Source: a virus
Virus record (IMG/VR): IMGVR_UViG_3300031631_000026
Coordinates: 1-24,336 of that record
Length of the DNA stretch: 24,336 nt
Reading direction: 5' to 3' (one strand)
Positions 7,843 through 24,336 of this stretch are shown here, one piece after another. A model generated the notes under the pieces. The model saw nothing but the letters and a program-made list of their open reading frames with translations. It did not search any database and was not told the DNA's origin. How positions within the stretch are numbered: position 1 is the first letter of the stretch; each line of letters starts with the position of its first letter. The translations under genes and the position numbers were made by a program.

Positions 7843-7853
7843 CTTCTTTTTTT

Positions 7854-9599
7854 TTAGTTTACTTTTCCTCTGTTTGGCATGTCGATAGTGCGTGTATTTG
7901 CCTTTCTCCATCCACTCGCATTTCTTAATCCTTGTCCTGTTGGTTCTTGGTCTGTAACATCTTGGTCGTTTTTTAAACCTTCATTAGGTAAGAACTTTCC
8001 TTTGTTTCGTTTTCTAAACCAAACTTGTCTAATGAATTTATGATGGCAGTAGCAACCGCCTTTATACAACCATATGGAATATTTTGACTTGCCACGCTCT
8101 GCAAATTCTTTATTAATTCCATCCTTTGACATCTCATTTATATCCTCGAACCGATAAGACACTCCACGCTTAGCATTAGCCACCATATTTTTACAAAATA
8201 GTCTGCTATTTCCTGCTATGTTTTCTGAATATCTGTAGCGTATTTTATAAAGACCTTTATCAATCTTAGACTTAGCGTCTGGATCGGCAAATCTTTTGAA
8301 GAAGTTGAACGGCTTGTTGTGAATTTCTGATTCTGCTACTGCATCATCCACATCCATCTCATCTATTAATTCCCATTCATCTGTATCTACCTTAGAACCT
8401 TTGTCTGCTAAGTATTCGATCCAAGTATTTTCATCCTCATCGGACATATTAACTTCAATAGAAGCTTCAATTTCTTCTACATCTCTCTTTACATTATCTT
8501 CACTCTGGAAGGGATTAGTTGAAGCAAAATCTAAATTAATAGGATGTCCTGCTTCTAACATTATCAATTCCATAGCTTCTGTAAGAATATCCCTGTAATT
8601 TTTAATCACAATATCTTCAAACAGAATAGATGCAGTCTTTAATTCATCTGCGTTATTTCCTAAGCCACCACCATCTACATTAACACCAAATAATCTAGGT
8701 GAAACTACTCTATGCGAAATCATTACTTTGCTTGTAATTTCTTTGCTTAGAAACTCGTATTGTTTGTCTGCATCTGATAAGGGAAATGGTGTAATTTCAG
8801 GTGCGTTGGCTCTATCATTTGCAAAAGATAAAATAAACTTTCCTGCATTTTTAGATCCGCTTAATTCTGCTTCTATTTGCTTCTTTACTGCTTGGCGTTT
8901 TTCCTCAGATGGAATACCATTTGCAAAACTTAAAAGAAATGAAGGTGCTAAACCATTTTTGATATTAGCCAAGTGAAATTCCGAAACGTTTTTGTCTAAT
9001 TCAATATAATTAATACCACCTTGATAGTCAGGTTTTGGATAATAATACTGCCCTACAGAATACATGCTAAAACTAGCAATCTGATTTGGGTAGTCGTTTT
9101 TTTCGTTTGGATCGAATGCTTTTATTTTGGCAGAACCTACCTTTTTATAATCACTCCAGTTTTTAGAATACAAAAAGAACTCGCTAGGGTTTCCATCCAT
9201 CTCAGGTTCTACTCTCATGCACTCAAATGGCATGTGATTGACTTCTGAAATAGTGCTTCTATCTACTGAATATGAAATAGATAAGTAAAAACCTCCATGT
9301 ACTTTTAAATCTAAGATACATTTCTGAATAGTGTTTTTACCGATCCCTTGTTCAAACAATAATTTAAACTTTGCCCAACTTTCTGACTTAGTCTGAGGCG
9401 AGGAAACTCCTTCACCATAAATCCAAGTTGAAATACTATTACAAAGTGCGTTATGAACCGCCGATTTTTGATATAAATTAATAAGAAAGTCAGGGTAGTT
9501 ATTATCCACACCATAAGCCACGAAGTCAGTACCTTGTTTTATCGTTTCGGTATCGTCTATGTACTCGTGACTTTGTCCTAATGTTATTAAATCATTCAT
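7854..9599 (-). CDS. Portal protein fused to a C-terminal Cys/His-rich domain (581 aa)
   Basis: Residues 1-400 read as an SPP1/HK97-type portal: DFVAYGVDNNYPDFLINLYQ near the start, a wing region, then the stem/crown with SKVMISHRVVSPRLFGV and NYRDILTEAMELI. The ring forms the DNA channel at one capsid vertex. Residues about 445-581 form a distinct domain with YRYSENIAGNSRLFCKNM, SIWLYKGGCYCHH (C516, C518, H519, H520) and a basic tail ending in DMPNRGKVN. I have seen this domain type attached to portal or head proteins in Bacteroidetes phages; its role is unknown to me. The start overlaps the previous gene by ATGA. Its position downstream of the capsid genes is unusual. Confidence 0.78.
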   Translation of the reverse strand: MNDLITLGQSHEYIDDTETIKQGTDFVAYGVDNNYPDFLINLYQKSAVHNALCNSISTWIYGEGVSSPQTKSESWAKFKLLFEQGIGKNTIQKCILDLKVHGGFYLSISYSVDRSTISEVNHMPFECMRVEPEMDGNPSEFFLYSKNWSDYKKVGSAKIKAFDPNEKNDYPNQIASFSMYSVGQYYYPKPDYQGGINYIELDKNVSEFHLANIKNGLAPSFLLSFANGIPSEEKRQAVKKQIEAELSGSKNAGKFILSFANDRANAPEITPFPLSDADKQYEFLSKEITSKVMISHRVVSPRLFGVNVDGGGLGNNADELKTASILFEDIVIKNYRDILTEAMELIMLEAGHPINLDFASTNPFQSEDNVKRDVEEIEASIEVNMSDEDENTWIEYLADKGSKVDTDEWELIDEMDVDDAVAESEIHNKPFNFFKRFADPDAKSKIDKGLYKIRYRYSENIAGNSRLFCKNMVANAKRGVSYRFEDINEMSKDGINKEFAERGKSKYSIWLYKGGCYCHHKFIRQVWFRKRNKGKFLPNEGLKNDQDVTDQEPTGQGLRNASGWRKANTRTIDMPNRGKVN

Positions 9600-20818: not shown

Positions 20819-21397
20819 CTACTTAATATCTAATCCTGTTGTTAAATCTTTTAGTAATCCCTCTTTTAAAGCTATTACAAACCGTTTCTTTGTTTCCTCA
20901 ATAGCGTCAGCCATAAAACTCCTCGCTCCTAATCCTTTCTCAGAAATACTCCTACCGATTAAATAAGATGCAGATTTTATGTTTGCCTCTGACTTCTTTT
21001 GAAACTTGCCATCCTTATCTCTTAGCCTTATTTTTGGACTGCGTACCCATTTTTCTACCACTCCTTTAGCTAGGTTATGTTTAGTGAACTTAGCTTTTGT
21101 CATTCCTGTTTTGTATTTCTTTACTGATGGATATGTGCTCTCACGCCCTTGCACTCCTTTTTCCATGAAGTACCCATAATCTTCTTTCGATCCGAACTTT
21201 AAGTTAATCTTATTATTTCCTAAAGTCAGTTTATAATATAGGCTCTTTTGTAACGCTCCTGTGTTATCTGTGATACGATATTTGCCATCTACCTTACGTT
21301 TGATTTTAAGGTTTCTCTTGGCTCGTTTTAAAACTTCCTGACCGTATAAGTCTAAAGCTTTAGCTGTGTTGGTTAAATCTACCTGTGTTTTAGCCAT
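20819..21397 (-). CDS. HK97 gp10-like neck/tail completion protein (192 aa)
   Basis: Residues about 5-30 form a helix rich in Lys/Arg (YGQEVLKRAKRNLKIKRKVD). DNTGALQKSLYYKLTLGNNK and KFGSKEDYGYFMEKGVQG follow, and GARSFMADAIEETKKRF near the end. This 'TG.L..S......yg.fmEkG..g ... ar.F...a' order is that of the HK97 gp10 / neck-type family, which joins the filled head to the tail. It is strongly basic. Its start overlaps the tail-terminator-like gene by 19 bases, and the two are usually neighbours in siphophages. Confidence 0.8.
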   Translation of the reverse strand: MAKTQVDLTNTAKALDLYGQEVLKRAKRNLKIKRKVDGKYRITDNTGALQKSLYYKLTLGNNKINLKFGSKEDYGYFMEKGVQGRESTYPSVKKYKTGMTKAKFTKHNLAKGVVEKWVRSPKIRLRDKDGKFQKKSEANIKSASYLIGRSISEKGLGARSFMADAIEETKKRFVIALKEGLLKDLTTGLDIK

Positions 21398-22623
21398 CTG
21401 TATAATTCTGTTTGGTTAGGTAAATCTACATCGTTTAATACTAATTCTTTAAATATGAAGTTGTTCGAGTTTGTAAGTTGTCCCCCCGTTCCTAAATAGT
21501 AGGCTGTGTTATCATCTAAATTAGCATCTATATATCCTGAAGATTCTATTCCTTCTAAATGTACATAAGTTTTATTTGTTCCACTTTCGCCACTTGCTTG
21601 TATTACTATTACTAAGGATTCCTCTCTTAAATAGTCAGTACTCTCATCTGCTACATTACCAATTAATGTAAATGAATTATCACTAACCTTGTTTATAACT
21701 AGCATATTTCTATGCGTTACTTCTGTGACTGTAGAACCACCTACTAATATTCTAAATCCTTTTGTTGGAGTGGTTAAAGAATCATCCATCCAAAATAATT
21801 CAGTGTAATTAGTCTTACTATCTTTAATATGTGAAACTTTTAAACCAAAAGTAGATGTATAAAATGATGATGAAGCACTCTTCCATATCATATACATGTT
21901 AGAAAAGGCGTCTGTATCTAATCCATTCAAATTAATACCTTGCTTATTGAAATCATACAGTAAGGTATTTTCACCTTGCCTAGTTAAAGAACCAACCGTA
22001 TCAAATGAATCTGTATTTATAAATGGTGCTAATCCTGTTATTGTTGTGTTACCTAAATAACCTCCTACAGTTACATTAGACTGTACATCTTCTGTAGCTG
22101 AATACCATTGTAAGTTTTCTAAATTAGTAACAGGTGCTGTGAAAGCTAAGCCGTCAAATATTTCAGTAGGCTCGTATGGTATGTTACATTGTGTAGATTC
22201 GTTTACTCCTGTAACTGTAATTGAAGTACTCCAACCGAATACTCTATTGTTGAAGCTTTCATCTATTGGTGCGCATGATATGCTTTCCGATCCTTGCAAT
22301 AGTAAAGTAGGATTCAGTATGTATTTACCTTTAAAGAACTCACTTCGTAAATCTTGCATTATTAGCAATGTATTGGCTAAGCTATCCTCTCGCCACTTAT
22401 CGCCCTGGTCATCATTTATACCTGTTAGAATATAAGCATCTACATCGTAGGCTATTGTGTTATCCTCAATTGTAGTTCCTGTAATGTTTATATGAAACAC
22501 AGGGTACTCGTTTATTTTTTTCAATTCCAATTGATCTGTTTCACCAACTGAAAATGAATTGATTTGACTGTGCTTATTTGCGAAGTCTTTGAAGTATGAT
22601 ATGATGCCAGAATATGTAATCAT
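21379..22623 (-). CDS. Tail terminator-like protein with a C-terminal LamG-like domain (414 aa)
   Basis: Residues 1-150 have the form of Bacteroidetes-phage tail completion/terminator proteins: FKDFANKHSQINSFSVGETD, EYPVFHINITGTTI, IAYDVDAYILTGINDDQGDK, NTLLIMQDLRSEFF, then FGWSTSITVTG. This protein caps the tube at the neck. Residues about 155-414 add a beta-rich module with FDTVGSLTRQGENTLLYDF and FSNMYMIWKSAS that resembles a LamG/concanavalin sandwich. A terminator alone is normally 130-160 aa, so the fusion is unusual and would put a sugar-binding-like domain on the neck. The ATG overlaps the stop of the frameshifted chaperone extension (ATGA). Confidence 0.62.
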   Translation of the reverse strand: MITYSGIISYFKDFANKHSQINSFSVGETDQLELKKINEYPVFHINITGTTIEDNTIAYDVDAYILTGINDDQGDKWREDSLANTLLIMQDLRSEFFKGKYILNPTLLLQGSESISCAPIDESFNNRVFGWSTSITVTGVNESTQCNIPYEPTEIFDGLAFTAPVTNLENLQWYSATEDVQSNVTVGGYLGNTTITGLAPFINTDSFDTVGSLTRQGENTLLYDFNKQGINLNGLDTDAFSNMYMIWKSASSSFYTSTFGLKVSHIKDSKTNYTELFWMDDSLTTPTKGFRILVGGSTVTEVTHRNMLVINKVSDNSFTLIGNVADESTDYLREESLVIVIQASGESGTNKTYVHLEGIESSGYIDANLDDNTAYYLGTGGQLTNSNNFIFKELVLNDVDLPNQTELYRWLKHR

Positions 22624-22844
22624 TTTTTCTTGTTGTTTTCTTGTTGTTCTGCTTTCTGCATTTGTAACTTAACGAAACATAACTTAAAAGGTAGCTCAGT
22701 GATTCTATTAAATTTAAGTAAATCTCCACCACATAAAGAATCTATTATAGCGAACCACCCATAATTACTGCGTGCTGTTGCTTCGCCTCCAGACGACTTA
22801 AATAGTTGAGTGAACTCCTTAAAGATTCGCTCCCTAAATGATAA
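22620..22844 (-). CDS. -1 frame extension of the tail assembly chaperone (GT-like fusion)
   Basis: In the -1 frame relative to the upstream chaperone gene, an open stretch of 74 codons begins at the T9 run and ends in TGA at 22622-22620. It reads LSFRERIFKEFTQLFK, then WFAIIDSLCGGDLLKFNRIT, then ELPFKLCFVKLQMQK. It has no start codon of its own at the right place, but it looks like the C-terminal part of Bacteroidetes chaperone fusions. It fills the apparent gap between genes, and its stop overlaps the next ATG. Together with residues 1-167 of the zero frame it gives a 241-aa fusion, analogous to lambda gpG-T. Confidence 0.8.
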   Translation of the reverse strand, partial: LSFRERIFKEFTQLFKSSGGEATARSNYGWFAIIDSLCGGDLLKFNRITELPFKLCFVKLQMQKAEQQENNKKK

Positions 22845-23344
22845 AAAAAAACCATCACTCCGTTTATATGGTCGATGCTTACTTGTTCAAATAGCTTAGC
22901 ATTTTTAATATGTTCTTCGGTATATGGCTCTATATTATACTTAGCTCCCTTTTCTTCTGTTATTGGTCTGTATAGAATAGCCATAATGTTCTGAATACCA
23001 TTAACGCCTTCTTTTACTTGCTCATCTAAATCCACAAACTCGCCCAAACTCATCTCATCTAGGTTAGGATGGAATCCAAACTCCACACCGCCCAAAGTTA
23101 TCTTGCCTACTATTTCTTTGTTTAATGGAACTGCTATTAGTTTAGATAGCTTTCTGTATATCTGTTGAATATCCGATACCTTCAACTTTTTAACGATCCG
23201 TAACGGCACATCGCATAGTGTTGAAATAGAATGTATGATAATCTCATCTTCATTCTTTAAGTCTGCTGAGCTAAAGTCTTGATAAGCTGCTAAGGTTACA
23301 TCGCTCCAGTTTGTAGGTATTACTATTTCTATTTCTTTCTTCAT
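22745..23344 (-). CDS. Tail assembly chaperone, zero-frame product (199 aa)
   Basis: The 199-aa protein starts IVIPTNWSDVTLAAYQDF after the first residues, with helices through SDIQQIYRKLSKLI and a conserved-looking NIMAILYRPITEEKGAKY (about 119-136). It ends in a zero-frame tail of 32 residues after the slippery T9 at codons 165-167 (VFF). These chaperones coat the tape measure protein during tail assembly; the short form and a rare frameshifted long form are both needed in many long-tailed phages. It follows a promoter-like site with a very short leader. Tape measure is encoded 7.8 kb away, which is unusual. Confidence 0.75.
   Translation of the reverse strand: MKKEIEIVIPTNWSDVTLAAYQDFSSADLKNEDEIIIHSISTLCDVPLRIVKKLKVSDIQQIYRKLSKLIAVPLNKEIVGKITLGGVEFGFHPNLDEMSLGEFVDLDEQVKEGVNGIQNIMAILYRPITEEKGAKYNIEPYTEEHIKNAKLFEQVSIDHINGVMVFFYHLGSESLRSSLNYLSRLEAKQQHAVIMGGSL
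22843..22851 (-). other. Slippery T9 site for -1 ribosomal frameshifting
   Basis: The minus strand has G followed by nine T then A, read in the zero frame as GTT TTT TTT TAT. This contains T_TTT_TTT, which fits the X_XXY_YYZ heptamer. A -1 slip changes the next codon to TTA and opens 74 more codons. The run falls exactly where the two frames must join, and the -1 frame is open all the way to the next gene. Confidence 0.8.
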
Positions 23345-23379: not shown

Positions 23380-24336
23380 TTAAATAATAGCGTAATCACC
23401 ATAACCACCGAAACATTCAAACCACATTCTCATCATTAAGGCATCTGCATAATCTGGACTTCTACCTAGTTTTTGTTTCTGTATGTCTTTTCCTTCAATA
23501 GCTGTTTTCTGCTGGTCTTTATCTACCTTATCACGCTTCACTATTTCTAATTCTGCTATGATTACATCCTTTATTGATTTGTCTTTGATGTATATTTTGC
23601 CATCATTAACCAATTCAGCTAGTTTAAAGTAGCATTGTGTTTTTAAATTCTGATAGTTTTCACCTTTTAATGCTTTGCCTCCATTTGAAAAGCCTACACA
23701 TCCACTAAATGAATCTACACATCCACCACCTACTCCATCTTGGTCAATTATTATCTTGCTGTTTGGTACTTTGAAATCTGATTGCAGCCCTTTTATTATT
23801 TCAACTAATTCAGGGATCGTATTTTTATCTATTGATACTATTTTCTCTGCTCTCAATCCGTTCCAATATATGATAACTGATTTATCTGCACCTAATCGTG
23901 CCACATCGCAACTAATATATCCTGTGCCTTCTTCTATGAATGTATTATTAAACAGATCCTGCAAGCTATCATAGTTGAATAGTAAAGCATCATCATCTGA
24001 ATACTCCCAATTTCCATACAGTAGCCTTTCTCGGCTTATTTTATCTAGTTTCTCTAGTTGTTTGATGTAGTGTTTGGATATTGCTTTATTGTCTGTTACA
24101 AGAGATTTTATGAATTTAGTGTGAACTGGTAGATTGTTTATTAAAGATGGTTTATAATATTTAGAATAGAGCCAACCTTTGGAAGGGTTACATGTTAAAA
24201 GTGTTTTAGGTATTAGGTTATATTCATCTAGTTTATATCTTATTCTGGAGTTTAAAACGCTGACTGCTTTCTCGGTTACTTCTGATGCTTCGTCTATGAA
24301 ACAATCTGTTATTTCTAAACCTCCTAAACTCGTGAA
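23380..24336 (-). CDS. terL: Large terminase subunit (partial, 5' end outside the window)
   Basis: The visible 318 residues continue upstream of the TTG at 23964 to the window edge without a stop. They start near Walker B (ITDCFIDEASEV, about 9-20), with the coupling motif LLTCNPS (about 46-52) and LLYGNWEY (about 105-112). The C-terminal RNase H-like nuclease follows: GYISCDVARLG (D144), IIIDQDGVGGG (D198/D200) and SPDYADALMMRMW (D295/D298). The enzyme packages DNA into the prohead with ATP and cuts concatemers. The N-terminal ATPase with Walker A lies beyond the right edge. The gene is followed by a promoter-like site and the chaperone gene, not by a portal gene. Confidence 0.93.
   Translation of the reverse strand, partial: FTSLGGLEITDCFIDEASEVTEKAVSVLNSRIRYKLDEYNLIPKTLLTCNPSKGWLYSKYYKPSLINNLPVHTKFIKSLVTDNKAISKHYIKQLEKLDKISRERLLYGNWEYSDDDALLFNYDSLQDLFNNTFIEEGTGYISCDVARLGADKSVIIYWNGLRAEKIVSIDKNTIPELVEIIKGLQSDFKVPNSKIIIDQDGVGGGCVDSFSGCVGFSNGGKALKGENYQNLKTQCYFKLAELVNDGKIYIKDKSIKDVIIAELEIVKRDKVDKDQQKTAIEGKDIQKQKLGRSPDYADALMMRMWFECFGGYGDYAII

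Follow-up and report, generated by a model that had tools for sequence, protein, structure and literature searches.

Among conserved examples of recoding by the ribosome, the frameshifted tail assembly chaperones are the textbook one. Where chaperones of the G/GT type are made, the short form is abundant and the fusion minor, both are absent from the virion, and tape measure and tube proteins are bound. The slip site of the lambda G/GT gene is GGGAAAG, and P2 gpE is likewise extended by a -1 shift. Genes of this type usually lie between those for the tail tube and the tape measure, a position which is not strictly defining.

Overlapping frames are also joined by programmed transcriptional slippage, as in Shigella mxiE and spa13 and in Thermus dnaX, which share an A/T homopolymer of at least nine bases at the frame junction; in mxiE, a single extra U on T9 joins the two frames. 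The RNA polymerase of Escherichia coli slips more on poly(T), mostly by one-base insertions (mxiE being an example with T9), and does so from T7 upwards, such that T9 is no absolute threshold (PMC6260861). Insertion rates climb exponentially with run length, and 80% of insertions are of single bases (PMC5574713). Each phenomenon is known on its own, yet the combination of a frameshifted tail chaperone with programmed transcriptional slippage did not turn up in the literature searched: neither tail chaperones made by transcriptional slippage, nor tail frameshifts in Flavobacterium phages, are reported in that open-access literature, which included few subscription papers. Here we describe a likely G/GT-type chaperone pair of Bacteroidota phages, the fusion of which probably arises through slippage of RNA polymerase.

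Results

The locus and its neighbors

The window (the whole 24,336-nucleotide stretch analysed, from IMG/VR record IMGVR_UViG_3300031631_000026) carries the genes of interest on its minus strand. The zero-frame gene (22745..23344), which has homologues in IMG/VR, encodes 199 amino acids, of which residues 1-167 form a conserved N domain, and is predicted to be the short, G-like chaperone. The predicted slip site, nine T's read as GTT TTT TTT TAT, occupies 22843..22851 (A9 on the plus strand). From here the -1 frame continues for 74 amino acids and a TGA stop (22620..22844), an extension homologous in all relatives which would form the GT-like C domain. A -1 shift at T9 would yield a 241-residue fusion whose stop (22622-22620) runs into the start codon of the following gene (ATG, 22623-22621), forming an ATGA at 22620..22623, an arrangement shared by close homologues. 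Past the run, about 31 zero-frame codons are read over the -1 extension (22745..22842). An earlier note, made from the sequence alone, had these coordinates right, and correctly saw both the in-frame T_TTT_TTT heptamer and a zero-frame tail of more than a few residues. Its claim that the heptamer sits at the only place needed goes too far, as the zero and -1 frames overlap by about 140 nt, yet homology of the C half does begin right after the run, within a few residues.

Upstream lies the gene for the terminase large subunit (TerL; 23380..24336, minus strand; phrog_2, E 3e-23), cut by the window end. Downstream are a gene for 414 amino acids (21379..22623, minus strand), relatives of which lie 3' of the chaperone in 290 loci, and then a gene for an HK97-gp10-like tail completion protein (20819..21397, minus strand; PF04883, E 0.0014; phrog_5, E 3e-4). 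This order is conserved, the chaperone being followed by tail completion-type genes (HK97-gp10-like in 258 loci) and preceded by TerL where the latter is recognised (105 related loci). The chaperone gene is accordingly placed between terminase and tail completion genes rather than between tail tube and tape measure, and a tape-measure-like gene lies some 8 kb away within the window. Another nine-base homopolymer, this time A9 on the minus strand, is found at 7847-7855, at the stop of the portal gene and just ahead of the likely start codon (MPTSL...) of the gene that follows.

Identity of the protein

The AlphaFold model of the N domain has a mean pLDDT of 92.8, and the best of 155 re-aligned PDB chains was 2ob9, the HK97 tail assembly chaperone, a match which is weak when taken alone (Z 3.3, rmsd 3.0, 59 residues, 7% identity). 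Among 95 family members, 11 match Phage_TAC_7 (PF10109, tail assembly chaperones E/41/14) weakly (best E 0.0028), and 20 match phrog_166, annotated as 'tail protein' (best E 7e-6). The window protein itself has no Pfam match above the cut-off, a Foldseek search of the PDB with the N model returned nothing significant, and a sequence search of the PDB gave no credible match. The C domain model is small and helical (mean pLDDT 79), and no relative of it was found among solved structures. Taken together, the chaperone matches of the N half, the conserved gene order and the frameshift architecture make a lambda G/GT-type tail chaperone pair likely, in line with the identity first proposed from the sequence. 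Chaperones of this type are not usually encoded beside terminase and far from the tape measure.

Conservation of the -1 layout

With one half or the other as the query, homologues were obtained from IMG/VR, the Nonlabens phages P12024S/L, and five genome records of Bacteroidota, one of them that of the isolate Flagellimonas onchidii XY-359. These five records were found by scanning bacterial genomes with the C alignment; the N alignment gave no match there, and blastn against cultured phages gave none. Each half was placed by profile, with a script blind to the T run. By this measure, 423 of the 424 loci have the C half in the -1 frame, and none has it in the same frame or +1; the last locus (L265), inspected by hand, has the usual -1 junction with T10. 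An apparent internal deletion at positions 1387-1850 of L265 interrupts its N domain, leaving the T10 junction and the C half intact. A few loci with one half missing, mostly ending near the junction, were left unscored in this count. The long fusion by a conserved -1 transition, which the earlier note proposed, is therefore encoded in 424 loci, and the comparison of homologues that it called for uncovered no relative in which the -1 frame is closed or the T run missing.

As some contigs had been fetched more than once, runs were counted over 312 distinct junctions, which comprise 246 with T9, 60 with T10 and six with T11, and none with T7 or T8. The plain T9 first noted is true of the window, and T9 to T11 is the rule among its homologues. 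The run is in codon phase p1 at 234 junctions, p2 at 75 and p0 at three. Every junction has an in-frame T_TTT_TTT, and none of the 312 has a different slippery heptamer. The zero-frame tail after the site spans 19-91 codons across the family.

The cultured Nonlabens phage P12024S (JQ823122.1) has this T9 junction too, and its two halves are the coding sequences P12024S_38 and P12024S_39, annotated as separate hypothetical proteins and held by PHROGs in two families (phrog_32199 and phrog_38404). Five BFVD entries of 240-267 amino acids (A0A516L611, A0A516L5A8, A0A6J5N0W0, A0A6J5N3F3 and A0A6J5SVK3) match both the N and C models, and seem to hold both halves in one ORF, either as natural fusions or through homopolymer errors; no single-ORF relative occurs among the 424 fetched loci. 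A remote structural match was obtained to gp10 of Flavobacterium phage 6H (L188, 9586-10927), which is followed by an unannotated gap of 304 nt with a protein-like frame. Near the end of gp10 there is an overlapping -1 frame, with no T9, and the junction was not located.

Selection on the -1 frame

Between moderately related pairs of C halves, differences at -1-frame codon positions 1 to 3 were 0.103, 0.060 and 0.265 past the zero-frame stop, and 0.150, 0.092 and 0.208 within the overlap. Third positions vary most, and the -1 frame is under selection at the protein level. In the -1 frame the first ATG is a median of about 60 codons downstream of the run, and 20 of 102 loci lack one altogether; in the window, the extension has none until codon 60. 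As there is no ATG near the run and C-half homology starts at the run, it is the fusion that is conserved, and not a separate protein.

Features of the slip site

Elsewhere in the coding sequence of 102 related loci, runs of at least nine T's occur only three times in 530 kb, and T9 at the junction is far beyond chance. As at mxiE-type sites, an uninterrupted T9-T11 is conserved at the junction and such runs are otherwise avoided in coding sequence. The heptamer that the earlier note took for the ribosomal device, an account which is probably incomplete, fares differently: other genes of these loci hold 42 in-frame copies of T_TTT_TTT, and it is not markedly avoided in them (29% of in-frame TTT TTT are preceded by T there, against 35% expected; p 0.07), and what is conserved at the junction is a run of at least nine T's in any phase. 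By contrast with the tolerated heptamer, an extra T after in-frame TTT TTT is avoided in other genes (7/145; p 6e-8 against the codon background, and p 0.005 against other spellings of Phe-Phe). One such heptamer, in AGT TTT TTT CAA, seems to recur at one and the same position of a downstream gene in several relatives (L057, L063, L075, L080, L082, L088 and L093), and would serve well as a negative control for ribosomal slippage.

The bases flanking the heptamer vary together. At the 75 junctions where it is preceded by a base other than T (AGT, GAT, AAT, GGT and others), two T's always follow and the run reaches at least nine; where a T precedes (237 junctions), two T's follow at eight and are absent at 229. 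On a tree of 102 representatives the preceding base changed three times, and the following T's changed each time, a co-change which is suggestive and, with three independent changes, below significance. Once both peptides are fixed, T9 allows hardly any synonymous choice or none at all, and the support for a floor of nine comes from residues that co-vary.

Scans for downstream RNA structure by minimum free energy, which can miss pseudoknots, gave a mean z of about 0.1 to 0.2, no more structure than shuffled sequences would give. SD-like 4-mers lie upstream of 7% of sites, with no sign of an SD-like stimulator. Some ribosomal frameshift sites function without stimulators. A stop in the +1 frame, at a median of two codons after the run, was considered as a signature of slippage and rejected, being explained by a conserved Phe-Arg (TTT AGR), at which AGR makes up about three quarters of Arg codons against a background of 72%.

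Discussion

At least nine T's in any codon phase, the tolerance of the same heptamer elsewhere, and the lack of a detected RNA structure or SD-like motif together favor slippage by RNA polymerase, to which we give about double the probability of a shift by the ribosome alone; from these sequence patterns, we infer that the slip is transcriptional, or at any rate not only ribosomal. Most transcripts would carry U9 and give the 199-residue short chaperone. On a fraction of them, RNA polymerase would slip back on the U9:dA9 hybrid and add one U, which amounts to exactly the -1 frame, such that the C domain could be reached without any shift by the ribosome. A message with U10 would be read over 242 codons, yielding residues identical to those of the 241-residue fusion. 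On the model of gpG/gpGT, the predicted role of the N domain is to hold the tape measure protein, and that of the C domain to recruit subunits of the tail tube. Both machines may act, as the mRNA keeps U_UUU_UUU.

The main competitor is a programmed -1 ribosomal frameshift at U_UUU_UUU in the style of lambda G/GT, the additional T's being a by-product of residues constrained in two frames. This is possible, if on the whole doubtful. It would explain the in-frame heptamer at every junction, it draws on the constraint that residues flanking the run do experience in both frames, and it has precedent, as the lambda-type chaperone frameshifts covered in one review are all translational as described (PMC5009743). 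Against it stand the same in-frame heptamer, common and tolerated in other genes; the 312 junctions without a T7, a T8 or an alternative slippery heptamer; and the failure to find a stimulator downstream or upstream.

The remaining alternatives concern the DNA itself, or deny the fusion. Were the length of the run altered by replication slippage, phase variation could switch the fusion on in some genomes, and long A/T runs are indeed hypermutable and found here at lengths of 9, 10 and 11. However, the C half remains in the -1 frame at any run length, the fusion-on state is encoded in none of the 424 consensus loci, and the apparent single-ORF relatives in BFVD have no counterpart among them. 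Since all loci share one fusion-off state of the DNA, phase variation is very unlikely, and a sequencing or assembly error in what is really one ORF of 241 amino acids, for which the error-prone nature of homopolymers might be invoked, is excluded; the same frame state recurs in 424 loci of many samples, in P12024S, and in the F. onchidii isolate. Scarcely more credible is reinitiation, by which the C half would be translated as a gene of its own, with no fusion at all. The GenBank annotation of P12024S as two ORFs and the two PHROGs families would agree with this reading, yet C homology begins only a few residues past the run, well ahead of any ATG in the -1 frame.

The chaperone resembles several known systems in part. 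Like lambda gpG/gpGT, it would combine a short product with a -1 fusion bearing a helical extension, and it belongs to a cluster of tail genes; its N domain bears a weak likeness to a chaperone fold. Unlike that pair, it has a T9-T11 site and a long zero-frame tail, its gene directly follows terminase instead of lying between tail tube and tape measure, and its slippage is probably the work of RNA polymerase. Among solved structures the N domain is best matched by the HK97 chaperone, albeit with a Z score of only 3.3, and Phage_TAC_7, which covers P2 gpE and relatives, is matched weakly by some members and not by the window protein. With mxiE, spa13 and Thermus dnaX the locus shares a homopolymer of at least nine at the frame junction, and with mxiE the T9 by which one extra U would join two overlapping frames; those are cellular or plasmid genes, whereas this is a gene of phage morphogenesis found across a very large virus family. 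ORF pairs of IS elements fused at runs of nine A's resemble it in the conserved run of nine, the overlap of ORFs and the setting in mobile DNA, and differ in having A runs in transposase genes, where here there are T runs in a tail chaperone (PMC1088944).

We lean slightly towards the stronger proposal that in this family of Bacteroidota phages the ratio of chaperone isoforms is fixed at transcription, with no ribosomal shift, which would make it, to our knowledge, the first such chaperone. If so, the output of two proteins is what is conserved, and one level of decoding can stand in for another, as is known for dnaX. The family is very large and consists mostly of uncultured phages of Bacteroidota, and a simple annotation rule, by which the -1 frame is joined at T9-T11 in the gene after terminase, would apply to many of their genomes and name a tail chaperone where at present the halves appear as hypothetical proteins unrelated to each other. 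The scaffold of F. onchidii XY-359 (L432) contains a prophage-like region with a terminase-like gene, the T9 chaperone and tail genes, and, being carried by a bacterial isolate, could be a convenient experimental system.
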